From a virus: a DNA stretch of 24,000 nucleotides. Below are positions 2,409-23,423 of the stretch, piece by piece. Each line of letters begins with the position of its first letter. The stretch's first letter is position 1. The position numbers were made by a program, and so were the translations under genes. Under the pieces are notes generated by a model. It worked only from the letters and a program-made list of their open reading frames with translations, had not been told where the DNA came from and made no database searches. The stretch spans positions 1-24,000 of IMG/VR virus record IMGVR_UViG_3300025000_001035; one strand, given 5' to 3'.

Positions 2409-3398
2409 CTACCAAGAATAGACATACACTGCACCATCGCCGCCTAGCCCACCATCGCCGCCAACAGATGTTCCGCCTCCGCCTCCGCCCCCACCACCTC
2501 CATTTGCTCCACCTGCTCCGCCAACGCCGCCCGTGCCGGAATCCTGTGCTCCGCCACCTCCACCGCCCGTTCCGCCCTTTGTAGAATCCCCTGCTGTTCC
2601 AGCGCCGCCAGCGCCGCCGTTTACAGCGCCACCACTGCCACCACCACCACTCGTTATCATAGAGTTTGCTCTGCCGCCAGCCTTACCTGCATCTTCAACG
2701 TTATCTGTATCTATTGGGCCACCGCCACCACCACCTGCACCGCCGAACACACTACTAGCGCCAGTAAGCCCCTCAGCAACGTTGCCGCCTCCACCACCTG
2801 CCCCGCCGAAAGCAGCAGCCTTACCCGCAGATCCCGGAGTTGTGCCGCCCCCACCAAATCCCTCTCCTGTTTCGTTGGCTGTGTTAGCAGGCAATCCACC
2901 TAGTTGGGCAGACCCAGCGCCAACATTTCCACCACCCCCTATTCCACCGCCAGTGCCCCCACTCCGACTATTGCCCACGGAACCGCCAGCGCCACCACCT
3001 CCACCATAGGCGTAAAGGCGAGTTCCAAAGTCGGTAGCTCCGCCCTGATCTCCGTTAGACCCGTTTCCACTACTACCGCCAGCGCCTAGCGCCCCTCCAG
3101 CGCCAATAGTAACCGCTTCTGTTGCGGCAAGGTCGGAGGCCCTGTACGTACACTTGTTACAGGCTCCGCCGCCGCCGCCTGTGCCAGGGGGCCTACCTGT
3201 GCCAGTTGCACCACCAACGCCGCCGCCACCGCCCCCGCCCGCACCAAACAGCACAACCTCAACCACTGTAGCCCCCGCAGGCTTTGTCCATGTGCCAGAA
3301 GCGGCGAAGACCTGGACATCAACGGGAGGGTTAGTGACCTGAACAGTCATCTGCCCATCCGCTTGAACTATTCTTACATCCATCTGCGGTGTTGGCAT
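2409..3398 (-). CDS. Glycine-rich tail fibre or virion surface protein
   Basis: 329 residues from ATG at 3398 with TAGGAG upstream. Residues 1-45 are a short beta-type region. The motif GTWTKPAGATVVEVVLFGAG then opens a glycine-rich domain of the kind widespread in phage fibres and adhesins (pattern W-x-x-P-x-G, then V-x-V-x-G-x-G-G-G). The following roughly 270 residues are more than half glycine, in runs of up to nine, with a CNKC pair near residue 82. The protein ends VYVYSW, a typical closing beta strand of this domain. Such domains can fold as polyglycine-II helix bundles at fibre tips in some phages; whether this one does is inference. The opposite strand shows long proline-rich open frames, which are only its complement. 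Confidence 0.82.
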   Translation of the reverse strand: MPTPQMDVRIVQADGQMTVQVTNPPVDVQVFAASGTWTKPAGATVVEVVLFGAGGGGGGGVGGATGTGRPPGTGGGGGACNKCTYRASDLAATEAVTIGAGGALGAGGSSGNGSNGDQGGATDFGTRLYAYGGGGGAGGSVGNSRSGGTGGGIGGGGNVGAGSAQLGGLPANTANETGEGFGGGGTTPGSAGKAAAFGGAGGGGGNVAEGLTGASSVFGGAGGGGGGPIDTDNVEDAGKAGGRANSMITSGGGGSGGAVNGGAGGAGTAGDSTKGGTGGGGGGAQDSGTGGVGGAGGANGGGGGGGGGGTSVGGDGGLGGDGAVYVYSW

Positions 3399-3407
3399 TG
3401 GTTTCTC

Positions 3408-3785
3408 CTACTTCGCCCCTTGGTAGTACGTCTTGTTGTTGGTGCTTTCACGTCTTGCAGCGGCATAGCTGCGGAACTCCCTTATGGCCTTCCCCACTTC
3501 CTGCCGCTCCGCAACACTTGCAGGGGCATGTTTACCCACCTTGCGCTGCCGCTTCTCCTCCAATTCTATCAGCCAGGTTTCCAGGGCAGAAGCGGCCATG
3601 TCCTCTATCTGCGCCTTGCTCATGGAGTCATCGGCTAGTATCCGTACCTCACGTGTCTTGCCGTACGTGGCAGAGTGAAAACGGAAGCTATGGGACACAA
3701 CGGCACTGCCAGTCTCTACATTACGCCCCAGGAGACTAGGCGTACCCTGAGTAACTCCTTTAGGCAACCACAGTTTGGCTACCAA
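3408..3785 (-). CDS. Hypothetical protein, 125 aa, TTG start
   Basis: The frame runs from TTG at 3785, with GAGGGAG at good spacing just upstream. No ATG is available near the N-terminus, so a TTG start is the best reading. It overlaps the end of the LicD-like gene by 26 bases. The N-terminal half is of mixed beta type. The C-terminal half is strongly helical and charged (MSKAQIEDMAASALETWLIE then many Lys, Arg, Glu and Ala), suggesting a short coiled coil. No family is recognised. Its position between the sugar cassette and the glycine-rich fibre gene makes either a small virion protein or a cassette accessory possible. Confidence 0.55.
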   Translation of the reverse strand: MVAKLWLPKGVTQGTPSLLGRNVETGSAVVSHSFRFHSATYGKTREVRILADDSMSKAQIEDMAASALETWLIELEEKRQRKVGKHAPASVAERQEVGKAIREFRSYAAARRESTNNKTYYQGAK

Positions 3786-4290
3786 CTTTCACTCCCTCTT
3801 TGCCCATCGCAGCGTTGCGGTTCTCTTTATTCCACCATTCGCCGTAGGCCAGTTGCAAATACGCCTGGACAGGGTGCGGCACACGGTACAGTTCGTCCTT
3901 GTACGGCACGGCGTCAAAGAAACGCGTAAGGTTCTCCTCGTCGTCGGTGAAGGTGTAGAACACGTCCACCAGGATGCCGCCGTCTTTGATGTTGGGAACG
4001 TCGGGGTCGTAGTAGATATGCCTGTTCTTTGTCCCGTCCACGTTCTCGCACCATCGTCCAAGGTTGAAGCCTGCTTCATACAACGCAGGCCACAGCTTCT
4101 CCAACTCCTCTGGCGTGGCCTTTACCGCCAGGTCTATGTCGTCGTCATGGGTTATCCACCGTCCGTCTCGGTACATGCCCAGGGCAGAGCCAGCAAACAA
4201 GCACCAGTCCAACCCAAGGTCGTCTGCCACTCCTTTGAAGCGCAGGAGCGCTTTGTCTGCATGGTCTTTGTTCATGGGTATATGTTTCAT
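3760..4290 (-). CDS. LicD-like nucleotidyltransferase-fold protein
   Basis: 176 residues from ATG at 4290, two bases after the radical SAM stop. The core motif is near residues 33-54: AGSALGMYRDGRWITHDDDIDLAV. It combines the Gly-Ser-Ala-Leu-Gly lead with the D-D-D-I-D metal-binding acids that mark the LicD/fukutin branch of the nucleotidyltransferase superfamily. LicD proteins transfer phosphocholine or similar phospho-substituents to surface glycans, and relatives act on other phosphosugars. At 176 residues it is shorter than most LicD proteins (about 260 or more) and lacks their long C-terminal half, so it may be a minimal or related nucleotidyltransferase. It closes the sugar cassette, which fits a role in adding a phospho-group to a glycan. 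The substrate is unknown. Confidence 0.75.
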   Translation of the reverse strand: MKHIPMNKDHADKALLRFKGVADDLGLDWCLFAGSALGMYRDGRWITHDDDIDLAVKATPEELEKLWPALYEAGFNLGRWCENVDGTKNRHIYYDPDVPNIKDGGILVDVFYTFTDDEENLTRFFDAVPYKDELYRVPHPVQAYLQLAYGEWWNKENRNAAMGKEGVKVGSQTVVA

Positions 4291-4292
4291 GG

Positions 4293-5420
4293 CTATATGA
4301 AGTTGAAGTTGACTGTTGGTTCAGTTGCCGCTTGGATTATCTCTAGCCCTTTTACTTCCTTTTCAAGGGCACGGTTTATCATATCTTGTCTACAAAGGGG
4401 GCCACAAGAGCGTTGTGCGTTGAACTCCTCAGAGACCAGATAGTCCATGACTTCCCAGTATCGCTCGGAGTGGAAGATGTCTTTGAACCGTTGCTCGGTA
4501 ATGTTGCCGATGTGCAACTTGGCGTAGCGGTCATTGAACTTATCGCCGCATGGAGCCACCAGTCCGCTACCGCTTATCTGCAACATGAATCTTGGTCCAC
4601 GGCATCGCTGATATGTCCTGGTCATGCCTTCTAGTATCTTGTTCCACATGACAATGACCTGATACTCAGGCGTGGCAAGTTTCTGTGCCTCTTGCAGCGT
4701 GGGTATCATTCCCTTGACCGCTCCGTAGTTGACACCCAAGTTGCCATCCTCATCATCCGCCACGTGCTTTACGGTGCAGGCTTCCACGCCAAGTTCTTTG
4801 CCTAGCCTTACGAATGGAATCACCTGGTCAACATCCTGTGGTAAGCAGACCATCTGAAGCACCAATTGAACAGGCAGATTGTTCCGCTTCTTGATAGCCA
4901 CCATGTTGCGGATATTCGAGAGCACCTGTTGGAAGAACTTGGGCTGAACGCCCATGATTTCACAATAACGTTGCTCAGTACCAGCAGGACAGTTGATGCG
5001 GATGTAAGACAGGGCGGGTAGCGATACCTCCTGTCTGTCAGGTGTGAGCGTGTGACAGTTACTTCCTGCTGCCACGTCCATGCCAAGGGCTTTGCACTTT
5101 TGCACAAATGGAACCCAGTGTCGGGATAGCAGACTCTCGCCGTCTGAAAGCAGGCTGATAGCTCTAACCCCTATCTCAGCGGCGTCATCCAGGAAATCGG
5201 ATAGGATGGGCCAAGTAAGCTCGTGGCGGTCATTTTCCTGGAGCATGGCGTAACAAAAGCTACAAGCTGCGTCACACTTGCGGGTCAACGCCATATCTAT
5301 GGTTACGGGAGCCAGTCGCTCTCCATGCCGCCATTGCTCTACACGGTCAATGTGGTAGGGCAGTTTGTGGCCGTCCATAATGCGGAGGCTGGTGGTAGGT
5401 CGCTCAATTACGATGACCAT
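4293..5420 (-). CDS. Radical SAM enzyme with SPASM/twitch-like auxiliary cysteines
   Basis: 375 residues, with ATG at 5420 overlapping the preceding stop as TAATG. The radical SAM motif is C49-D-A-A-C53-S-F-C56 (CxxxCxxC), which binds the [4Fe-4S] cluster that cleaves S-adenosylmethionine. LSDGES at 91-96 occupies the GGE-type SAM-binding position. The C-terminal third has C273, C291, C339 and C343, followed in part by KLHIGNI, arranged like a SPASM or twitch auxiliary cluster. Members of that group modify peptides or sugars (sactipeptide maturases, anaerobic sulfatase maturases, BtrN-type dehydrogenases). The substrate cannot be read from sequence. Its place between thiamine-dependent and LicD-like genes suggests sugar or small-molecule chemistry, but a peptide or virion-protein substrate is equally open. 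Confidence 0.85.
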   Translation of the reverse strand: MVIVIERPTTSLRIMDGHKLPYHIDRVEQWRHGERLAPVTIDMALTRKCDAACSFCYAMLQENDRHELTWPILSDFLDDAAEIGVRAISLLSDGESLLSRHWVPFVQKCKALGMDVAAGSNCHTLTPDRQEVSLPALSYIRINCPAGTEQRYCEIMGVQPKFFQQVLSNIRNMVAIKKRNNLPVQLVLQMVCLPQDVDQVIPFVRLGKELGVEACTVKHVADDEDGNLGVNYGAVKGMIPTLQEAQKLATPEYQVIVMWNKILEGMTRTYQRCRGPRFMLQISGSGLVAPCGDKFNDRYAKLHIGNITEQRFKDIFHSERYWEVMDYLVSEEFNAQRSCGPLCRQDMINRALEKEVKGLEIIQAATEPTVNFNFI

Positions 5421-5674
5421 TAGACCTTCGCGCCCCTTAGCTTCACCCGTAGCTTTTCCATGTCGCCTCTTGGCTGTAGAAAGACCTGCACATCTGGGTC
5501 TATCTCCCGATGCAGCCGCTTCTCCAACTCCAAGAGCATGTGCCCCCGTTCTGCTGTTGGCATGTCCTGTTTCATCCGCAAGGTGAGTTTATTCCCATTC
5601 CATGAGACAAACTCGACTTCCTTTGGAAAGTCCACACTAGAAAGCACTTGTAGGTACTGCGATGTCGCTTGCAT
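5420..5674 (-). CDS. Hypothetical 84-aa protein coupled to the E1 beta and radical SAM genes
   Basis: 84 residues from ATG at 5674. GGAGGT lies 8 bases upstream, the best Shine-Dalgarno in this stretch. The gene overlaps the end of E1 beta by 38 bases in another frame and its TAA overlaps the radical SAM ATG. The protein looks like a small alpha/beta domain: FVSWNGNKLTLRMK as a strand pair, TAERGHMLLELEKRLHREI as an amphipathic helix, then DPDVQVFLQPRGDMEKLRVK ending in a basic tail. I do not recognise the family. The tight coupling suggests a subunit or accessory of the thiamine enzyme or of the radical SAM protein. That is inference from position only. Confidence 0.65.
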   Translation of the reverse strand: MQATSQYLQVLSSVDFPKEVEFVSWNGNKLTLRMKQDMPTAERGHMLLELEKRLHREIDPDVQVFLQPRGDMEKLRVKLRGAKV

Positions 5675-6545
5675 GAGATTCCACCTCCGCTGGCGGCGTT
5701 TTCCCTAGCAGCTGGCATACTCTGACTACAATATCCCTGGCAGAAGGATACCACATCCGTTCCATTGGTACAGAGGCGCCCTGGGGGATGAAGGGCGGGG
5801 ATACGATGCCTGGGCTAGGTCTATGAACAACGGTGTCCACAAGTAAGTATGGGTGATCAGTAGACGGAAGTTCTACTACATGCTCCCATACATGGAGATT
5901 GGGCCGTACACCCATGCCCTCTAGCACCTTCACTGCCTCATATCCCTCTAGCACCATGTCGCCAAGGGCGAAGATGGTGATGTCGGGCAGAGGGTAGTAT
6001 TTCTGGTCAGACATTCCCAGCAGGTCGTGGTCATAGAGGCGGCGTGGTTCAAAGATGATGGTGGGGGTGCCGCTCTCCAGAGCCGATTTCAGCCATCTGT
6101 GATATCTGCCTGGCAACACTGGCATGAACACATCCAGCCCTGGTATCTGCGCCAGAAGGTGATGCCAACTCTGGCTATGGACTGGCCCCTGGCCCCATCC
6201 ACGGCCCACTACACACCGCATGATAAACGGCAGCGGCTCCCCGTGCAGGAAATTGAACTTCGCCGCCGTGTTGATAAGGTGCTCAAAGCTGAACAGAGAG
6301 AAGTCTGCCCGGGTATGTACCAGGATGGGCTTCCAACCTTCCATCGCCAGACCCACACATGCCCCAGTCATCATCGTCTCGGATATGGGCATCTCTAAGA
6401 CACGCTTGGGGAAGAGCCGTGCCGCTTCGGAGACTGTCCCAAAGACGCCATGTGGTGTGGTGACGTTCTGCCCAATGATAACCACCCGTTCATCGTTGCG
6501 GAGAGCGTCCACCATCGCCTGAGAGATAGCGTTCTTATACAGCAA
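5637..6545 (-). CDS. Thiamine-diphosphate enzyme, E1 beta / transketolase C-terminal type
   Basis: I place the start at TTG 6545, preceded by AGAGGTGG, giving about 302 residues that begin LLYKNAISQAM, where E1 beta homologues begin. The frame is open up to an ATG at 6620, but those extra 25 residues overlap E1 alpha and look non-homologous. Family landmarks are VLEMPISETMMTGACVG, whose Glu corresponds to the one that activates the thiamine aminopyrimidine ring, DFSLFSFEHLINTAAK, GWGQGPVHSQS and PGLDVFMP. These define the pyrimidine-binding domain of pyruvate/acetoin dehydrogenase E1 beta and split transketolases. The C-terminal domain (PLPDITIFALGDMVLEG) is present. No lipoyl E2 or E3 gene is in the window, so a transketolase-like or carboligase reaction on a sugar is an alternative to dehydrogenation. 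Confidence 0.82.
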   Translation of the reverse strand: MLYKNAISQAMVDALRNDERVVIIGQNVTTPHGVFGTVSEAARLFPKRVLEMPISETMMTGACVGLAMEGWKPILVHTRADFSLFSFEHLINTAAKFNFLHGEPLPFIMRCVVGRGWGQGPVHSQSWHHLLAQIPGLDVFMPVLPGRYHRWLKSALESGTPTIIFEPRRLYDHDLLGMSDQKYYPLPDITIFALGDMVLEGYEAVKVLEGMGVRPNLHVWEHVVELPSTDHPYLLVDTVVHRPSPGIVSPPFIPQGASVPMERMWYPSARDIVVRVCQLLGKTPPAEVESHASDIAVPTSAF

Positions 6546-7476
6546 CTTCCACCTCTGCCCAAGGTGCTGATTCAGCCTTCTGGAACGCTTCCGACACGGC
6601 AAACTCCACTGCCCATTCAATGTCGTCTCGCTGTGTAGCTGGCAGCAGTGCGCCTAATATCTCCAAGGGGTCGTATTCTGGCTTGGCCATCTCGATAATT
6701 GGCCCCACGTGCTCTGCCCATCGGTGTGTCCTGATTTCCAGGAAGGCGGGCAGTTCATGGAGCATGGTCTGAACTGTTTTGTAGATAACCTCAACATCCT
6801 TATCGGTCACTCGATTGGATTGCATGAAAAGAAGGACTCGCTGCCAGATGTTTGAACTCCCTGGCTGACGTTGCTCTACGGGCGTCTGTGTAGCCAGGCG
6901 GTTATTCTCGCAGACATAGAGGAGCCTGAGCTTATGGGTGGCGGCGAAGTTGAATGATTCCCATACCTGCCCTGATTCCATCGCTGCGTCACCAAAGAAC
7001 ACCGCCGTTACTCTATCGCTGCCTTCTAGCTTCGCCGCCAAAGCAGCCCCCGTTGCCAGGCTGACGCCATCTCCGACTATAGGGAAGGCTCCCATGAAAC
7101 CTGCCGCCTTGTCCCGCAGATGCATGGAACCGCCCCTACCACCACAGCAGCCCGTGCCCTTGCCGTAGAGTTCGGCTATCATGGCGTCCAGGTTGCCGCC
7201 CTTGGCAAGATAGGCGGCATGGCATCTGTGACTGGCAAACACATGGGCGTCGGCAAGCAAAGCCATCATCACGCCAACGGCGCAACTCTCCTGGCCCAGG
7301 CTCAGATGTGTTGGAGTCCGCATGGGATTATAAGATGCGCCATACCCACCATAGACCTGTGCAATCTTCAAGTCCACCTGTCGGCACAGGTACATCTTCT
7401 CATAGGCTGTGGCAGCGTCAAAGGTCATTGTGGTATACTGCTCCTGAGTTGGTGGATAGCTGCTCTGTATTATCAC
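6535..7476 (-). CDS. Thiamine-diphosphate enzyme, E1 alpha / transketolase N-terminal type
   Basis: 313 residues from GTG at 7476. That start forms a GTGA overlap with the upstream micro-ORF, but its ribosome site is poor. ATG at 7428, with CAGGAG 12 bases upstream, is a plausible alternative. Landmarks are THLSLGQESCAVG (about 56-68), SHRCHAAYLAKG, YGKGTGCCGGRGGSMHL (104-120) and the diphosphate/Mg2+ motif G162-D-A-A-M-E-S-G followed by N191-N192. These match the alpha subunit of pyruvate, acetoin and branched-chain keto acid dehydrogenases. It pairs with the overlapping beta gene as a heterotetramer. With a GmhA-like isomerase and HldE-like enzyme just upstream, it could supply or extend a sugar phosphate. 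The usual dehydrogenase partners are absent. The family is clear and the substrate is inferred. Confidence 0.85.
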   Translation of the reverse strand: MIIQSSYPPTQEQYTTMTFDAATAYEKMYLCRQVDLKIAQVYGGYGASYNPMRTPTHLSLGQESCAVGVMMALLADAHVFASHRCHAAYLAKGGNLDAMIAELYGKGTGCCGGRGGSMHLRDKAAGFMGAFPIVGDGVSLATGAALAAKLEGSDRVTAVFFGDAAMESGQVWESFNFAATHKLRLLYVCENNRLATQTPVEQRQPGSSNIWQRVLLFMQSNRVTDKDVEVIYKTVQTMLHELPAFLEIRTHRWAEHVGPIIEMAKPEYDPLEILGALLPATQRDDIEWAVEFAVSEAFQKAESAPWAEVEVAV

Positions 7477-7556
7477 CCTTTGCTAAGGTTAAGTGGTACA
7501 GGGTTGCCGTACAAATACTCGGCGAAGGAACACAAGCCAACTCTTCCCCTTTTCAT
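7473..7556 (-). CDS. Candidate 27-codon micro-ORF between isomerase and E1 alpha
   Basis: A 27-codon frame exactly fills the only gap inside the sugar cassette. It starts at ATG 7556, overlapping the isomerase stop as ATGA, and its TGA at 7475-7473 overlaps the GTG of E1 alpha. The peptide begins MKRGRVGLCSFAEYLYGNP. There is no clear ribosome binding site, so translation would depend on coupling. It may encode a real small peptide, or merely serve to bring ribosomes to the weak GTG start. Only its junctions support it. Confidence 0.35.
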   Translation of the reverse strand: MKRGRVGLCSFAEYLYGNPVPLNLSKG

Positions 7557-8086
7557 TTCAAAGCCTCAGCTATCATGTGCAGTATACAAGACATCGCATC
7601 CTCCACGGGGCCATACTCGGCCTGTGGCAAGACCACCGCACTCTGACACATTGGCAGAGCTAGGCCACCCCCAAAGCCCAATATCCCAATGTTTGTGCCT
7701 TTCCCTACACCGAGACATTCCAGGATGTTGTCCGAGTGCCCAGAACCGCTTATGACAATAAGGGCGTCGCTGCCACGTTGAAGTAGTGTCAGTAGGCGGG
7801 CTGCGCTGCCTTGGTAGCCATAGTCGTTGCTCTGCGCTGTCAGGTAGGCAGAGTCGGCCATAAGGTCAATGGCCTTTATGCCCACATCACGGAGATGGAG
7901 TACAAGGTGTTGGGCATTAGCCTGGGAGCCGCCGTTGCCCACCACAAAGACCGTGCTGCCCCTATCTCGCATGACCCGCAGCAGTTCTATCAGGACAACT
8001 ACTTCCGTCGCCCTGATATTCTCAATGGCTTCAATAACTCGCCCCTTGTATAGGGCTATCTGGTCTGCTACTGTCACCACAGCCAT
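7553..8086 (-). CDS. SIS-domain sugar-phosphate isomerase, GmhA-like
   Basis: 177 residues, close to GmhA length (about 190). Its ATG overlaps the upstream stop as TAATG. The SIS fold is marked by VVGNGGSQANAQHLV at 48-62, the sugar-phosphate loop VISGSGHSDNIL at 111-122 and a C-terminal EYGPVEDAMSCILH. GmhA converts sedoheptulose 7-phosphate to manno-heptose 7-phosphate, the first committed step of ADP- or GDP-heptose synthesis. Its zinc ligands are a His-x3-Glu pair and a Gln/Glu-x7-His pair. Here the first pair reads H60-x3-H64, so the usual catalytic Glu seems replaced by His, while E162 and H170 are kept. This may change the substrate or mechanism. The next upstream gene is the HldE-like enzyme of the same pathway. 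Confidence 0.85.
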   Translation of the reverse strand: MAVVTVADQIALYKGRVIEAIENIRATEVVVLIELLRVMRDRGSTVFVVGNGGSQANAQHLVLHLRDVGIKAIDLMADSAYLTAQSNDYGYQGSAARLLTLLQRGSDALIVISGSGHSDNILECLGVGKGTNIGILGFGGGLALPMCQSAVVLPQAEYGPVEDAMSCILHMIAEALK

Positions 8087-9441
8087 TACACAAGTCTCCT
8101 GATGAACTTCCGTAAGACCTTGGGGTCAATGGGCTTCTCGTTGCCAAAAGTAGCACACTGCATGGCGGCGGCGCAACTGCCCACAAAGGCCGCTACCTCT
8201 CGATCTACCCCCAGGCATGTCAACGGTGCCGCCAGGGAAAAGAGGGCATCACCAGCGCCTACTCTGTCAACCAATTGCGTCACGAAGGATGGGACGTCCA
8301 TGCCAAAGTTGCAGCCTTTTGAGCCGTTGGTCAGCAGCACATTGCTTGCGCTGTATATATCCCAGCCGTTAGCTAGGGCCAGCCGCTGTTCAGGACCATC
8401 CATGCAAATAAAGTCCAGCCGCTTCCATTTGGTCGCAAGGTTCAGCCCATAGTTGGCAGAGTTGGTCTGGCAGTTCACGGCAAGGAACCTGGCCTGCTTT
8501 TGCAGTCCGTCCCGTAACTCAGGCGTGAACAGGCCATGCCCGTAGTCCATCGCTATGACCATGCTGTACTCGGCGGCATGGGCCAGAAGGTCAAGCCCTT
8601 CCAACTTGATAGATAGCGTGTCTGGCAATGTTTGTATCGAGAACAGTTTGCGGAACTCCTGTTCCTCTACAAACCGCTCTTTTACAATCGGCTCACGCTG
8701 GCATACCAGCCGCACGTTCTTGGCAAACCCTGCCAGGTGGTTCTGGATAGCTACAGAACCGCCATGATAAGCCTCGGTTCGCAGCTTCTTGACAGACAGA
8801 TGGTGCTCTCTAGGACTCTTGGTGAGCGTGTTCACTATCACATATCTATCGGTAATGCTCTCCCCCACCACCAGGATGCTCAGATTCGCAATGGAGTCCA
8901 CCGATCCCAGAATCTCGTCTGCGCTGTGGCGCCGCCTGAATCCTTCCAACCACCGCCATGTCTCCTCTGAGTAGCTGTGAAATGTGCCGTTGAGGTCTTC
9001 CTTGGGAACTGGAAAGTATGGCGTGAAGGCCAACCGCCCCCCTACTGACGCCAGGGCATCCTTCTCTTCCTGTATGATACCCTGCTCGTCATAGTCGCCA
9101 CCCTTGACGAATAGGTCTGGACGAACTGCCTCAATAACCTCTGCGGCAGTGGGTGCATTACTCGGCACAACGTAGTCCACCATGTCGAGAGCCGCTAACT
9201 GCTCCATGCGTTGCCATTGGGAAAACACGGGCTTTCCTGGCCCCTTGTTCACATATTCATCCGCGGTGACGCTCACCACAAGCACATCGCCCTTCGCCTT
9301 GGCTTCTCTCAGATAGCCGATATGCCCTGGATGCAGCACGTCGAAGCAGCCGTGGGCCAGCACAACAGGCTTGCCGCCCCGACAGCCATTCAACTCCGCA
9401 ACGTCGGCAAGAACTTTGTGCCGTCCGGGTGCAACTGTCAT
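8086..9441 (-). CDS. Bifunctional nucleotidyltransferase-PfkB kinase, HldE-like with swapped domains
   Basis: 451 residues, with ATG at 9441 overlapping the preceding stop as ATGA. Residues 25-145 are a cytidylyltransferase-type domain with AHGCFDVLHPGHIGYL (HxGH at 37-40) and FVKGGDY at 111-117, as in the adenylyltransferase part of HldE and in glycerol-3-phosphate cytidylyltransferases. Residues 185-451 are a ribokinase/PfkB domain with VVGESITDRYV, DYGHG at 299-303 and the anion-hole and base motif DRVGAGDALFS at 392-402 (Asp398). HldE phosphorylates heptose 7-phosphate at O1 and then adds AMP. In the E. coli enzyme the kinase is N-terminal, so the order here is reversed. With the GmhA-like gene next to it, activation of a heptose or similar sugar is the best reading. 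Confidence 0.85.
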   Translation of the reverse strand: MTVAPGRHKVLADVAELNGCRGGKPVVLAHGCFDVLHPGHIGYLREAKAKGDVLVVSVTADEYVNKGPGKPVFSQWQRMEQLAALDMVDYVVPSNAPTAAEVIEAVRPDLFVKGGDYDEQGIIQEEKDALASVGGRLAFTPYFPVPKEDLNGTFHSYSEETWRWLEGFRRRHSADEILGSVDSIANLSILVVGESITDRYVIVNTLTKSPREHHLSVKKLRTEAYHGGSVAIQNHLAGFAKNVRLVCQREPIVKERFVEEQEFRKLFSIQTLPDTLSIKLEGLDLLAHAAEYSMVIAMDYGHGLFTPELRDGLQKQARFLAVNCQTNSANYGLNLATKWKRLDFICMDGPEQRLALANGWDIYSASNVLLTNGSKGCNFGMDVPSFVTQLVDRVGAGDALFSLAAPLTCLGVDREVAAFVGSCAAAMQCATFGNEKPIDPKVLRKFIRRLV

Positions 9442-11054
9442 TTCGTCCCCGTCAAGATTGCGAACTTGCTCTGTATCACCACGTCGTCTTGTGTGATGGT
9501 AGCTTTATACGCCTTCCGCACCGCATCGGGCATCGTCCTGTGTATCTCCATGATGCGGTCTGTGCTCTCCTTGGGTAGCCCGCTGTTATCTAGCCAGTTG
9601 CGGATGCTAAACCCCTCCATGATATATTCAGCAGCCTTGATGTACTTGAAGCCCGCTCTGACCATAAGGCGGTTCATAAACGGCACTGTCATGGTCATAC
9701 GGTCTTCCTTCAACTTGAACATTTCGGTATACCATTGCTGCGCCATCCGACTAATTGGCACACCCTCGGAGAAGATGAACTTGCCGCCAGGGACTAGCAC
9801 CCGCAGGCATTCCCGCATGGCCTTGTCCGCATCGCCCTGCCCTGTCAGTCCATGCACTACCATCCTGGCAAACACCTTGTCGAACCGTCCCCTGGGGTAA
9901 GGAATAGCCCTGATGTCCCCCTCTACGAACTCCGTGTTTACAGCCGTGCGTCCATTCACCCGTGCAAGCATGGCGGGCGATACATCCAGGCCGACTACCT
10001 GGTGCACCACCGGAGCAACTTCATGGGCAATGTAACCAGGGCCAGTGCCCGCATCCAGCACATAGTCATCAGACACAACCCCAGCAGCATCCATGAGTGC
10101 CGCCAGATAACCTTTGTCCTGGGGCCATTGGAGTCTGGGATAGCTCATGGCTCTGCCTTCCCAATGCTCTCGAAGAGTTGCCATCTCGACCATCAATGAT
10201 GGGTTATTCATCTCATCTGGCCTGATGGTTTGTGGTTTCATGGTTATCATCTCGTATTTGCACCCCTCGGCTTTACAAAGATAGAGTCCCATATCTCGTG
10301 ACTGATGGCTCAGATAAACAGGGCCAATACAGAATGTTCCATTGTTATTATGGGCACGAAAAGGAATCTGGTAGAAGTCTTTGAAGCCCCGTGCCAACTC
10401 CAGGATTTTGACTGGCGTGTCCACATCCATGTGCGGGTAGCAACCCTGCTGCTGCCAGAAGTAGTGGTCTTCGCCCTCAGTACCAAAGCCTCTCCATACA
10501 GGAGGGGCAATACGCTTCAAAGCTTCAACTTTGAACAGAATGCAACAATGGGCAGCCCAGGTCAGACGCAACAGTCCTTCCCGTGTTGGCCTGTCATGCG
10601 GCCCATAGTTCATGTCTTCGACAGGTGGGAAGTCAGGGAAGGTGAGTCGTGGCAGGATGATGTCTTGCCCGTGGCGGAGCAATCTTTCGAGTGTGTTAGG
10701 GGTGAAACAGGCGTCGTTCTCAATCAGGAAGAGGTAGTCATAGCCACCGTCTATAGCGGCCTGGACTCCCCAGTTACGCATCTGGGTATGGCCCCGCAGC
10801 CTGCTTCGGGGGACAGTGGATGCAGCCTCTTCCTCAGTGATGAAACCTGGAATGAATACAGGAACAGCCGATGGCCCGTAGGCAGCGCACATCGCCAGAG
10901 TGTCATCTAGCGTGGTGCGGCCCTCAGTGCCATAGCTCATGGGCCGAGGCCCCACGATAGCCACAAGCACTGTGGGCAAGAGTGCCCCTGTAGGCGCAGG
11001 GGGCACAACGCCGACAGGAACACTCTTGAGGTCATATTCAAGCAAAGTAGCCAT
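9438..11054 (-). CDS. Glycosyltransferase-methyltransferase fusion protein
   Basis: 538 residues from ATG at 11054, with AAGGTAG upstream. Residues 1-250 look like a GT-A family glycosyltransferase: a TVLVAIVGPRP strand, GGYDYLFLIENDACFTP at 103-119 with an acidic metal-binding motif in place of DxD, and FGTEGEDHYFW at 190-200, as in family 2-like transferases. A C260/C265 pair lies in the linker. Residues 310-538 are a class I SAM methyltransferase with motif I VLDAGTGPG at 332-340, acidic motif VVGLDVSPAML and a FVEGDIRAIPYP segment near 390, close to UbiE-type enzymes. A single chain could add a sugar and methylate it, or methylate a neighbouring glycan. It heads the sugar cassette and directly follows the capsid genes. 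Confidence 0.8.
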   Translation of the reverse strand: MATLLEYDLKSVPVGVVPPAPTGALLPTVLVAIVGPRPMSYGTEGRTTLDDTLAMCAAYGPSAVPVFIPGFITEEEAASTVPRSRLRGHTQMRNWGVQAAIDGGYDYLFLIENDACFTPNTLERLLRHGQDIILPRLTFPDFPPVEDMNYGPHDRPTREGLLRLTWAAHCCILFKVEALKRIAPPVWRGFGTEGEDHYFWQQQGCYPHMDVDTPVKILELARGFKDFYQIPFRAHNNNGTFCIGPVYLSHQSRDMGLYLCKAEGCKYEMITMKPQTIRPDEMNNPSLMVEMATLREHWEGRAMSYPRLQWPQDKGYLAALMDAAGVVSDDYVLDAGTGPGYIAHEVAPVVHQVVGLDVSPAMLARVNGRTAVNTEFVEGDIRAIPYPRGRFDKVFARMVVHGLTGQGDADKAMRECLRVLVPGGKFIFSEGVPISRMAQQWYTEMFKLKEDRMTMTVPFMNRLMVRAGFKYIKAAEYIMEGFSIRNWLDNSGLPKESTDRIMEIHRTMPDAVRKAYKATITQDDVVIQSKFAILTGTK

Positions 11055-11065
11055 AATAGGCTACC

Positions 11066-11830
11066 TTACCGGGCTATTTGAAGGAAAATCTGGGCATACC
11101 CCGTTGCGGTGGCGATGCTTTCAAAGATGCCGATTACAGGCAAGAGGCTGTCTGTTGCCTGAGCGCTTGCTGTCTTGTTCATCCTGACGCCACCATCCAC
11201 GGTGCCCGTGGCATAGACCCGTGCCTTGTAACCTATAACAGACGATTGGGCTATCATCAGGATTTGTGCGGAACCCCAGGTCTGGCACCAGAAGTAGCGG
11301 TCATCCGCCACCTCAACGGGGGCCACGCCCAACGGGATGCCGTCAATGTCGTTGGAGTCAAACAGTTCGCAGTCCAGCCACTTGTTCTGCCGCAACCCCA
11401 CCTTCGAGGCAGTGGTGAGGGCTTCGTCAGCGATGCCATCCTCTTCGTCAAGATTTACCTTGAAGGTGGCGGTGGTGGCAGCGGCAAGATGGCCCTTGAC
11501 GATGTACATGTGGCCTTCTGCATTACCATCAGTCACGTAGATGGTGCCGTCGGCGTACTTGTCCTTGGTAAGCGATGCGCCTGAGTTGGTCACGATGATG
11601 GCCAGGGTGCCCAGGGCGGCGGCTGCAACAGACCTGCCACGTCCGTGGACACCAGTCACCAAGTCCTTCTGCATCACCAGCTTACCAGCGCCAATGGCAC
11701 CGTTGCTGAAGGCGTAGTAGAACACACGACCATCAGGCAACTCCATACGAGTGCCCAGGCGGTGCTTCTTGCCAACGGTGGTAATCTTCTCCCACCCGAA
11801 CTTGCCGTAAATGTTCAATGGAAATGCCAT
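11066..11830 (-). CDS. Probable capsid-associated or decoration protein
   Basis: 254 residues with a strong site (AAAGGAG) before ATG at 11830. The sequence is dominated by short beta-type segments with many Ala, Thr, Gly and Val, and a long Ala-rich central part (GRGRSVAAAALGTLAIIVTN, LAAATTATFKVNLDEEDG). It has no enzymatic motif, signal peptide or coiled coil. It lies one small gene downstream of the major capsid gene. Its composition and place fit the head decoration or minor capsid proteins often found there, but I recognise no named family. A tail or head-fibre role is an alternative. Confidence 0.68.
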   Translation of the reverse strand: MAFPLNIYGKFGWEKITTVGKKHRLGTRMELPDGRVFYYAFSNGAIGAGKLVMQKDLVTGVHGRGRSVAAAALGTLAIIVTNSGASLTKDKYADGTIYVTDGNAEGHMYIVKGHLAAATTATFKVNLDEEDGIADEALTTASKVGLRQNKWLDCELFDSNDIDGIPLGVAPVEVADDRYFWCQTWGSAQILMIAQSSVIGYKARVYATGTVDGGVRMNKTASAQATDSLLPVIGIFESIATATGYAQIFLQIAR

Positions 11831-12233: not shown

Positions 12234-13112
12234 TTACGCCGTGGCAGCAGTGCTAGGAGCAGCAGCGTCACACTTGAATCCGGCCCCTCGTTTGTCGTCA
12301 AGCTCGAAGACGCCGTAGTCGGATACCATCACGACTTCCGTGGCCCGCAGCGATGCGTCTCGCTGCCTCTCCGTCCGGGTCTTGACCGATTCCAACACCA
12401 CCATAGCGCCCTGGTCTGCTATGACACCCACTGCATCATCCGAGGAGTCTACGGCAAGGTTGCCATCCTCAAAGATTGGCACTCCATTCAGGGGCCGCAG
12501 TCCCACAAAGAACTTGCCCAGTAGTTCTTGCGACCAACCATTCGGAACGGGATAGGTGGCCCCGGGCGTGATGGCGCCAGACTTGGTGAAGATGTACACA
12601 GAGTTGGGATGATGCAGGATGGAGAGCTTGCTCCCGAACTTGTTTGCCTTGGCGTAGGTGATGGCAGCGGCCACGTTGCTTACGTTGAACTTGGCATTTG
12701 CGATACCCAGCAAGGTTCCACCGTTCAGGCTGGAATACAGGGCATGGACATCGGTGTCCTTCTTGCGAGCCATGCCGTCGCCCAATTGCCGCCCAATCAT
12801 GCTGAACACATTGGGCTGGCTCTGCCTCACCAGTTTGTCTGTCACGATGACCTTTGCACCAACCTCGGCAGAGGTCAGGTCAACCGTGGTCGGGCCGATT
12901 TCCTCTTCGTCCACGATGTCCTGCCCGTCCACCAGGTCGTTTATGGTCATCTGCCCCACCTTTGGTACAGTGACCTGCTTCTCTCCCTGGTTCAGTATCA
13001 TGTGCTCAATGAGCGACATGGCGGGAGCGTTATGCTCCTCGGTGTACCGCACCGCTGCGATGATGATTCGCTGTGCATTCTCCAAATTACCCGTCGTTGC
13101 TGTCTGTGGCAT
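12234..13112 (-). CDS. Major capsid protein, HK97-fold type
   Basis: 292 residues with GGAGGGTAAG before ATG at 13112. Position and sequence pattern support the call: after a scaffold-like gene, with an early beta-rich region (KQVTVPKVGQMTINDLVDGQ), a helix with IGRQLGDGMARKKDTDVHAL typical of the HK97 spine region, YVFTK-type strands in the middle, and a C-terminal part GVIADQGAMVVLESVKTRT with VVMVSDYGVFELDD, typical of the A and P domains. No protease gene is visible nearby and the scaffold is a separate gene, as in phages with uncleaved capsid protein. The fold is an inference from these motifs and the neighbourhood. It would be the most abundant protein of the late operon, consistent with the promoter just upstream of its scaffold. 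Confidence 0.85.
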   Translation of the reverse strand: MPQTATTGNLENAQRIIIAAVRYTEEHNAPAMSLIEHMILNQGEKQVTVPKVGQMTINDLVDGQDIVDEEEIGPTTVDLTSAEVGAKVIVTDKLVRQSQPNVFSMIGRQLGDGMARKKDTDVHALYSSLNGGTLLGIANAKFNVSNVAAAITYAKANKFGSKLSILHHPNSVYIFTKSGAITPGATYPVPNGWSQELLGKFFVGLRPLNGVPIFEDGNLAVDSSDDAVGVIADQGAMVVLESVKTRTERQRDASLRATEVVMVSDYGVFELDDKRGAGFKCDAAAPSTAATA

Positions 13113-20978: not shown

Positions 20979-23423
20979 TTATCTCCGTGTCACCACCCTG
21001 GACCGCTGTCCGCCTGCTCTGATGATGCGTCGGGCATACCCTCCGTGGCGTTGCATCACAAACCTCTGATTGTCCCCGTCCACCAGCTCAGGCGTGAAGT
21101 CGGAAAGGATATATCTTTCTGCGTCGAGGAGGTGGAAAGTACTTTTGTCCTCAATGTCGTCCGTCGGCTCGTATTTATCGTTCAAAGCATACGAGTAAGA
21201 CAGCTTTTCGTCAAGATACTTCTGCAAGTCATTGAACACAAACAGCTTATTGAGCTTGTGAAGGCCATACACCCTATCTATGCCAGTCGCCACGTCGTGG
21301 ATTTTGGGTTCCTGGATGAACCAGCCGTTGGCCCTGTACGCCTCCCGTATCTCCTCCTCTTGGTGGCTGCCGCCAGCCCGTTTCATCACGTTCAAGCCCT
21401 CGGTCAGCCGTTTGAACTCCTGCACATGCTCCCTGGTAGACCGTCCAGGCCCAGGTTTGTACTCATCATAGGCGTAGAAGTATCCCGTGGCGGGGTCCTG
21501 GGCATAGAACATGGCTGCGGGGTTCGCTGTCCCGAAGTCGTGGCCGACGTAGTGGGGCCAGGCTGCGGGAATGGCGAACCGCTTTATCTTGCAGGCGGCC
21601 TCATCGAAGGCGTCGTAGACCAGTCCAGCGGGCCGCTCGAACTTCCCCTCGTAGAACATGCGGAACTTCCATCCAGGCATGGTCTTCTTGGCCCGCTCGA
21701 ACTCCTCCGGGGGGAAAGCGGGATTGGCCGTCGAGGGCCAGGAGATGACTTCAATGCCACTATCTGGCTCTTTTGCTCTGTCAAAAAGCTCAGTCTTCAG
21801 CCAGCCCAACAGGTAGGGCGTCGTGGGGTACAGTATCCGCCCCTGGTGGATGCTGAGGCGTCGCAGGAGAGCCTCTCGTGCCTCACGGCGGAACTGGCGT
21901 TGCCCCGCTTCATCGGCCACAGCAGCCTTCGCCGTCGCCGATTCAAGGCTTTCGGGGTTGGTGGCCGTGCCGAATATCACCCGTGTCTTGCCTACTGTGA
22001 ACTCAAACACCTTATCAGAGTCACGATAGCGGCCTTTGTGCTGCATGTGCTGAAACACGTCCAAGAACTCAGGTAAGAGCTTCAGTTGCATGAGGGGGTA
22101 CGTGGCCGACACCATGAGATAGTCGCCCTCGCCCCGTTCCGCTATCTCCCTGTCCATCCAGTCCACGCCTACTGAGGTGTTATGTGTTGGCACATAACCA
22201 TAGCCAGCCAAATACATGCTGGAAGGACTGCTCACCTGAATACACTTCACTGGCATAGATGCAATGGGGACGACGGCAGTTATAAATCTGCGGCGCACAT
22301 CTGGGCGATTGACCTTCGCCTGTCTTACCAGTTTTCTGGCAATTGTAAAAACAGGCAACGTGGTGCAAAAGTCAAAAACGGTGGTGTCTTTAGATGGAAT
22401 CCCATTACAAAGTGGCGTTTTGATTCGACTACGCCACTTGATGCCAAGCGAGGAGAGCAAGACGCCAAAGCCGTAAGCTAACAAAGGTTTCACGCTCGAC
22501 CACTCACACCGTCCATTTGGAGCGCAATATCCATCGGTGTCCATCAAGCCTCTTAGCAAGGCCATGCGTTGGTCGTAGGAACCCCTGAGATAGCTGTCTG
22601 GGATATGTTTGTTGTTCAACACCCCAAGGGTACGAAGCCGCCCTTGCAGCGTGTTTGCCCGACTTGCAAGGCTTCCGCTTGGATGTCCTCCGCCCACTTG
22701 ATAAGTCTGAGCTTTGCCTGTGTTGGGGGATGGTCGGGCATGGAGACTGTAACCCTCTATAGTGATGCCAGCCAATACCTCCTCGTCCATAGTTGTTATA
22801 TTGGAACTTGCAGATGTGCCGTCTCCAAGCCAGCATCCTAAAGTGTAGGGCTGGATTGGATAGTCTTTTGCTCGATAAGTAACAGGCTGGCAGAGGGCTA
22901 TAGAGTGATTCGTTGACTCATTGAGCGCCCCTTCTCTTGAAATAAGGGTGCGGCGAATGCCATTTGTGGTAACAACACTAGACCGAGGATGCCTGCGCTT
23001 TTGCAGGTATGCCCAGCCAGGCACAGGGATTTTGACTTGTCTCGTCTCATTTTTCCTCTGTGTGGCAGTCTGGGTCTTCCAACAATGGTCAGCATCTGCA
23101 ATGAGCCAGGCCCCATCATCAAACTCTACCCTGAAACATCTCCGTCCATACTGGATTTCGGTGGCAAATATCACTTGGCACTCTCTGCCACCATCGTCAA
23201 AGACCACGTCGCCAGGATGCAGTGATTCCATGCTAACAAACCCGTTAGGGGTTGGAATCGGCGTATCTATGGCTAAGGCTTTTCCACTTTGAACTCCGCT
23301 AAGCGCAAGTATCTCCCGTGCCTTGGACATCATCACGGCTATCTGGCCGTAGTGCATGTTGTGACGCATCTCCCCGTTCGGAAGAAGCTCACGGTAAGGG
23401 CGAACAGCAGGAACGGTGGTCAT
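20979..23423 (-). CDS. terL: Terminase large subunit, interrupted by an intein
   Basis: The full reading frame is 814 residues: 447 of terminase extein plus a 367-residue intein at 49-415. The ATPase part has Walker A SGVQSGK/TS split by the intein between K48 and T416, Walker B KAAVADEAG and the coupling motif YPTTPY. The nuclease domain has VGHDFGTANPAAM, whose Asp is a candidate metal ligand of the RNase H-like fold, and a later HDVATGIDRVYGL. It packages DNA by ATP-driven translocation through the portal encoded next. ATG at 23423 overlaps the preceding stop as ATGA. Because the intein breaks the P-loop, the ATPase can work only after protein splicing. No separate small terminase is certain in the window. 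Confidence 0.92.
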   Translation of the reverse strand: MTTVPAVRPYRELLPNGEMRHNMHYGQIAVMMSKAREILALSGVQSGKALAIDTPIPTPNGFVSMESLHPGDVVFDDGGRECQVIFATEIQYGRRCFRVEFDDGAWLIADADHCWKTQTATQRKNETRQVKIPVPGWAYLQKRRHPRSSVVTTNGIRRTLISREGALNESTNHSIALCQPVTYRAKDYPIQPYTLGCWLGDGTSASSNITTMDEEVLAGITIEGYSLHARPSPNTGKAQTYQVGGGHPSGSLASRANTLQGRLRTLGVLNNKHIPDSYLRGSYDQRMALLRGLMDTDGYCAPNGRCEWSSVKPLLAYGFGVLLSSLGIKWRSRIKTPLCNGIPSKDTTVFDFCTTLPVFTIARKLVRQAKVNRPDVRRRFITAVVPIASMPVKCIQVSSPSSMYLAGYGYVPTHNTSVGVDWMDREIAERGEGDYLMVSATYPLMQLKLLPEFLDVFQHMQHKGRYRDSDKVFEFTVGKTRVIFGTATNPESLESATAKAAVADEAGQRQFRREAREALLRRLSIHQGRILYPTTPYLLGWLKTELFDRAKEPDSGIEVISWPSTANPAFPPEEFERAKKTMPGWKFRMFYEGKFERPAGLVYDAFDEAACKIKRFAIPAAWPHYVGHDFGTANPAAMFYAQDPATGYFYAYDEYKPGPGRSTREHVQEFKRLTEGLNVMKRAGGSHQEEEIREAYRANGWFIQEPKIHDVATGIDRVYGLHKLNKLFVFNDLQKYLDEKLSYSYALNDKYEPTDDIEDKSTFHLLDAERYILSDFTPELVDGDNQRFVMQRHGGYARRIIRAGGQRSRVVTRR
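22179..23279 (-). mobile_element. Class 3-type intein with LAGLIDADG endonuclease, in the TerL P-loop
   Basis: In-frame insertion of 367 residues, Ala49 to Asn415 of the TerL frame, starting ALAIDTPIPTPNG and ending GYVPTHN before Thr416. The first residue is Ala, not the Cys/Ser of ordinary inteins. The residues of the class 3 WCT set are present: Trp115 in ADHCW (block B, after His113), Cys394 in PVKCIQV (block F) and Thr413 in PTHN (block G). Cys394 would be the initiating nucleophile. An endonuclease of dodecapeptide type is inserted, with LGCWLGDGT (Asp201) and LRGLMDTDG (Asp297), both acids intact, so homing is plausible. The segment looks more AT-rich than its flanks (not computed). 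Confidence 0.9.

Follow-up and report, generated by a model that had tools for sequence, protein, structure and literature searches.

The stretch analysed here, hereafter the window, comprises 24,000 nucleotides (positions 1 to 24,000) of the viral record IMGVR_UViG_3300025000_001035 and is 99.98% identical to 24 kb of a 41.4-kb contig, IMGVR_UViG_3300025030_000221. Along its minus strand the terminase gene is followed by further genes, the major head protein gene, two small genes and then a block that encodes, in order, a glycosyltransferase–methyltransferase fusion, a protein joining nucleotidyltransferase and kinase domains (NT-kinase), a SIS-domain protein, the alpha and beta subunits of an E1-type thiamine diphosphate (ThDP) enzyme, an 84-amino acid protein, a radical SAM enzyme, a LicD-like protein and a 125-amino acid protein; a gene for a glycine-rich fibre protein comes after it (Table 1). 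All genes of the block are open reading frames on this strand, and neighbours either overlap or are separated by short gaps, in each case by a few to some tens of bases. A preliminary description had reported a nucleotide-sugar-type gene set with overlapping ends embedded in a virion operon. An open reading frame check together with Pfam, NCBIfam and PHROGs searches found the named genes in place on one strand, and the virion setting was borne out by recognition of the terminase and major head protein upstream and of the tail-fibre-type protein downstream. That description lacked the 84- and 125-amino acid genes and did not mention that the domains of the protein it called HldE-like stand in reversed order. 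Comparison of the window with locus L127 showed that the block genes are under purifying selection (pN 0.17–0.31 versus pS 0.64–0.74). The product of the gene directly upstream of the block gave no family match and, judging from gene position, is possibly a virion protein. The gene for the terminase large subunit (20979–23423) carries an apparent intein-like insert near Walker A, read by eye, with separate family matches on either side.

Table 1. Genes of the block and its flanks in the window, listed in minus-strand order
Product	Coordinates	Strand	Basis
Major head protein	12234..13112	-	PHROGs head families
Gene adjoining the block on its upstream side, after the major head protein gene	11066..11830	-	Position only
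Fusion of an N-terminal glycosyltransferase (GT-A fold) and a C-terminal SAM methyltransferase	9438..11054	-	Methyltransf_11; GT-A fold match
NT-kinase: N-terminal nucleotidyltransferase and C-terminal PfkB-type kinase	8086..9441	-	CTP_transf_like; weak PfkB
SIS-domain sugar-phosphate isomerase, GmhA-like, not GmhA by metal ligands	7553..8086	-	SIS_2, 4e-8
E1-alpha subunit of ThDP enzyme	6535..7476	-	E1_dh, 3e-36; conserved motifs
E1-beta subunit of ThDP enzyme	5637..6620	-	Transket_pyr, 3e-24; catalytic Glu and His
84-amino acid protein, function not assigned by family match	5420..5674	-	Conserved; just before the radical SAM gene in a subgroup of phages
Radical SAM enzyme, SPASM-type C-terminus, DesII-like fold	4293..5420	-	SPASM/radical SAM families; fold
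LicD-like putative phosphotransferase/nucleotidyltransferase	3760..4290	-	Weak LicD match here, firm in L128
125-amino acid protein accompanying the block	3408..3785	-	Conserved in L127 and L128
Tail-fibre-type protein rich in glycine, next gene after the block	2409..3398	-	phrog_863, 2e-12

The methyltransferase assignment of the fusion protein comes from a Methyltransf_11 match in Pfam over residues 333–428 (5e-20). The N-terminal part gave no Pfam match; a predicted model of residues 1–318, confident in its core only, matches GT-A enzymes, and the nearest folds include protein glycosyltransferases. Homologues of the fusion adjoin the cassette in other phages. The LicD match scores 19.2 bits in the window, under the Pfam gathering cut-off of 22.6, and 40.4 bits in L128, a close relative of the window phage. 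In the radical SAM enzyme, C49, C53 and C56 (CX3CX2C) together with C273, C291, C339 and C343 are invariant across 49 radical SAM sequences, the C-terminal cysteines being fewer than in a full SPASM domain. The folds closest to its predicted model (pLDDT 88) are DesII, SuiB, BlsE and SkfB; the similarity to DesII (TM about 0.6) is of a degree that many radical SAM enzymes show, among them peptide maturases.

The E1 pair finds its best families in E1_dh and PDH E1-alpha, with weak matches to the transketolase N-terminal family, and retains both the ThDP-binding GD...N motif and the catalytic Glu and His of the beta subunit. By these matches the enzyme is of the 2-oxoacid dehydrogenase type, and transketolase was rejected as its identity. 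The alpha subunit probably starts at ATG 7428 and the beta subunit at TTG 6545. Pfam detected no lipoyl E2 partner among the block genes, the remainder of the contig being read by eye only. Some of the closest plasmid relatives of E1-alpha are Streptomyces enzymes (45–47%) whose genes do not lie in a recognised sugar cluster, so the E1 sequence alone cannot settle the reaction. Enzymes that place two-carbon branches on keto-sugars include E1-type alpha/beta enzymes, which have been described, and split transketolases, which have been proposed; the branch is sometimes transaminated (PMC12247030, PMC4753412).

Scans of viral sequences with single proteins recovered the near-identical contig only, and wider relatives required alignments. 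A radical SAM profile built from 49 sequences identified 39 viral loci, of which 37 were analysed following exclusion of two very weak matches. The NT-kinase, SIS, E1-alpha, E1-beta and radical SAM genes were all present in the stretch examined near the radical SAM gene in 17 of the 37 contigs, and a gene for TerL, a portal or a head protein accompanied the radical SAM gene there in 17 of the 37 loci, in some directly before the cassette. A conserved gene order, which the preliminary description had suggested looking for in other viral contigs, was thus found. When three further phages (G002, G003 and G004) were compared with the window phage, only the cassette genes, a related glycosyltransferase and an HNH-type match passed 1e-4; each of the three has its own terminase, portal or head genes, which were verified. 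In an E1-alpha tree (FastTree) the window-type phages group with a support of 1.0, nested among E1-alpha sequences of bacterial cassettes, and the G002/G003-type phages form a separate clade among the bacterial sequences. The radical SAM tree requires at least two gains or losses by phages; it joins the window with L113, a placement that is unsure because both lie on long branches. A search for close relatives of the window phage that lack the cassette yielded none long enough to show an empty insertion site.

Glycosyltransferases adjoin the cassette in several phages, either GT41 enzymes with TPR repeats or weakly Anp1-like proteins. Genes with TPR and GT41 matches were noted near the cassette in two phage contigs (L144, 4953–6815; L154, 12815–14692), with a related open reading frame in L146. 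In G004, a long open reading frame between the portal and the cassette (L124, 9621–11084) resembles a TROVE/Ro-type protein by eye, and the 735-kb phage LR756501 has E1-beta, radical SAM and E1-alpha genes in succession in a region rich in glycosyltransferases (L016, 10594–12812). Unannotated records labelled as 'Listeria', 'Staphylococcus' and 'Enterococcus' phages were set aside since they appear to be bacterial DNA, and an Acinetobacter acoA contig, also apparently bacterial, was not taken as phage evidence.

Outside viruses, tblastn against plasmids identified full-length relatives of the NT-kinase (34% identical) in Azospirillum oryzae and Solidesulfovibrio carbinolicus. Those of A. oryzae sit with genes for a SIS protein, an SDR enzyme, E1-alpha, E1-beta, two DegT aminotransferases and a radical SAM protein that is 51% identical to that of the phage. 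A genome scan with two radical SAM sequences as queries gave 131 confirmed relatives; the 80 that were kept come from many phyla. Among these and four viral loci, many of whose stretches end at contig ends, an NT-kinase was present in 58, E1-beta in 50, E1-alpha in 49 and SIS in 32. The commonest complete one-strand order in the bacterial loci, NT-kinase, SIS, E1-alpha, E1-beta, radical SAM, also occurs in viral loci. The bacterial clusters frequently include DegT aminotransferases, and the core phage set does not contain the SDR and DegT enzymes that many of the bacterial clusters have; therefore, either the host supplies these steps or the product differs. Most bacterial clusters also encode, upstream of the radical SAM gene, a conserved protein of about 360 amino acids with no Pfam match (L064, 8864–9943, and relatives). 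We see an even chance that the cassette is a mobile module for sugar biosynthesis and transfer, acquired by phages from a widespread bacterial cluster of glycan type and kept in the virion or packaging gene region, with its chemistry following the steps proposed below.

We infer these steps and their order together with the substrate, the branched product and the acceptor. The SIS protein would interconvert a ketose and an aldose phosphate, and the kinase and nucleotidyltransferase would turn the sugar into its nucleotide-activated form. Oxidation or deamination of this activated sugar could then fall to the radical SAM enzyme with its DesII fold, and the E1 pair could attach two carbons to the keto-sugar in the manner proposed for AviB1/AviB2-type enzymes. 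The fusion protein would transfer and methylate the sugar, the LicD-like protein would add a phospho-substituent, and the glycan would be produced alongside the virion proteins and transferred late in infection. Judged from gene position, which is what speaks for both acceptor and timing, the glycan most likely decorates the virion or a protein of the host surface; late use on one of these, as the preliminary description had it, is plausible, and the glycosyltransferases beside the cassette in several phages fit with this. Tentatively, diverse tailed phages may share a horizontally moving pathway, encoded among portal and capsid genes, with which they build their own branched nucleotide sugar and glycosylate the virion.

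The same cassette could instead serve the host surface, an S-layer or wall glycan being altered towards the end of infection, perhaps to prevent superinfection or to aid release. The bacterial parent clusters lie among glycan genes, and the sugar clusters of cyanophages lie away from head genes, both of which speak for a surface target. The cassette's position beside portal and head genes in phages of several backgrounds, the protein glycosyltransferases among the nearest folds of the fusion and the GT41 enzymes, often protein-directed, of some phages weigh against it, though none of these is decisive; this target is somewhat unlikely.

The preliminary description had envisaged a route to an activated heptose, in which ADP- or GDP-manno-heptose would be made from sedoheptulose 7-phosphate by GmhA- and HldE-type steps with the E1 pair supplying the ketose. 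A structure search with the SIS protein matched GmhA structures first, and the family nearest to the nucleotidyltransferase domain is HldE domain II (117 bits), as this route would have it. However, the metal ligands of GmhA (H64, E68, Q175 and H183, Burkholderia numbering) are completely conserved among its orthologues (PMC5705639), and the window protein has H, H, E and H at these positions, so that two of four are replaced (E68 by H, Q175 by E). The cassette SIS proteins compared have D or H at the first of the replaced positions and E at the second, none having the E and Q of GmhA. Against TIGR00441 (GmhA) the window protein scores 61.5 bits, with a curated cut-off of 209. The NT-kinase carries its nucleotidyltransferase at residues 29–121 and its PfkB-type kinase at about 188–434, opposite to the order in HldE, and scores 121 bits against the curated HldE family, for which the cut-off is 521. 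Neither label can thus be read as naming the enzyme itself. Furthermore, no GmhB-type phosphatase was recognised, and the block of L128 contains the glycosyltransferase–methyltransferase, the LicD-like gene and the 125-amino acid gene but no SIS gene.

The E1 pair bears on the heptose route in two ways. It is not a transketolase, which speaks against the route, yet in six loci a split transketolase replaces it, which speaks in favour. Counted across loci, E1 only occurred in 61, transketolase only in 6, both in 1 and neither in 14 (Fisher p 0.0007, kinship ignored), and the replacement concerns few loci, three of them from related Campylobacterota. The substitution is compatible with an early ketose-making step or with a later branch-adding step. 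The probable host adds a further argument. The 41.4-kb contig encodes a TatC homologue outside the window (30935–31669; L010, 10935–11669), which aligns to TatC models only from model position 49–68 onwards, so that its N-terminal part may be missing. It has relatives of 59–64% in three other viral contigs and scores up to 173 bits against Dehalococcoidia and other Chloroflexota and up to 96 against Alphaproteobacteria, other phyla being lightly sampled. G004, a related cassette contig, was binned with a Dehalococcoidia metagenome-assembled genome. Chloroflexota are not known to make LPS; a host without LPS is therefore likely, and a role in LPS heptose is disfavoured. Thus, of the route originally proposed, a sugar-activation cassette in a virion operon stands, whereas synthesis of a canonical heptose appears improbable.

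Transfer of the sugar to bases of the phage DNA, as protection from restriction, is highly unlikely: phage glycosyltransferases can glucosylate DNA, as the cited part of PMC12619734 indicates, but none of the block genes was recognised as base-modifying and the cassette lies among virion genes. Equally remote is a peptide-modifying, RiPP-like system composed of the radical SAM/SPASM enzyme and the 84-amino acid gene with the neighbours only loosely related, since, despite SkfB and SuiB among the fold matches and a small conserved gene directly upstream, the radical SAM gene co-occurs strongly with NT-kinase, SIS and E1 genes in bacteria and phages, and the 84-amino acid gene, whose product matches no Pfam family, precedes it in only 9 of the 37 viral loci.

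That phages borrow host sugar genes, and that some glycosylate their particles, is already known. What did not appear in the literature searched is a small set of enzymes in the head-gene region that is common to otherwise unrelated tailed phages. The cassette also points to a widespread and apparently unstudied bacterial pathway combining a radical SAM enzyme, a ThDP enzyme, an NT-kinase and a SIS protein, and it provides defined genes with which a new sugar and virion glycosylation can now be tested.

Within the literature searched, subscription papers lying outside its scope, no comparable phage cassette or bacterial cluster was found; several known systems share parts of it. Mycobacteriophage glycosyltransferases have been linked to glycans on the capsid and tail tube, and the cited parts of those reports mention no multi-enzyme cassette for sugar synthesis (PMC12619734, PMC11256854). 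The cyanophages S-SM2, Sf-FS3 and SynMITS9220M01 likewise encode a nucleotidyltransferase, a PfkB kinase and a SIS protein (phosphoheptose isomerase-like); S-SM2 also has an E1-like fusion, SynMITS9220M01 has a weak radical SAM relative, and the sugar cluster of Sf-FS3 adjoins neck and head genes. However, the cyanophage clusters are larger, differ in composition and order, match at only about 20–39% identity and do not bring a cassette-type radical SAM enzyme together with an E1 pair. The GmhA–HldE pathway has the SIS, kinase and nucleotidyltransferase families in common with the cassette, which differs in ligand residues, in domain order, in having no phosphatase and in its additional E1 and radical SAM enzymes. 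DesI and DesII, an aminotransferase and a radical SAM enzyme acting on a TDP-sugar, resemble the cassette in the radical SAM fold and in the aminotransferase partner of the bacterial versions; identity is 12–14%, the block of the window phage has no DegT gene, and the tie to the nucleotide-sugar deaminase DesII is a fold match only. In fold, the radical SAM enzyme also comes close to BlsE. Finally, the alphaKADH2 (E1-type) and split-transketolase enzymes that make branched sugars, with AviB1/AviB2, Pau11/Pau12 and KbDH as examples, are likewise two-subunit ThDP enzymes of sugar pathways; they are known from antibiotic producers, and the E1 pair of the window is likened to the alphaKADH2 enzymes by family and context only.
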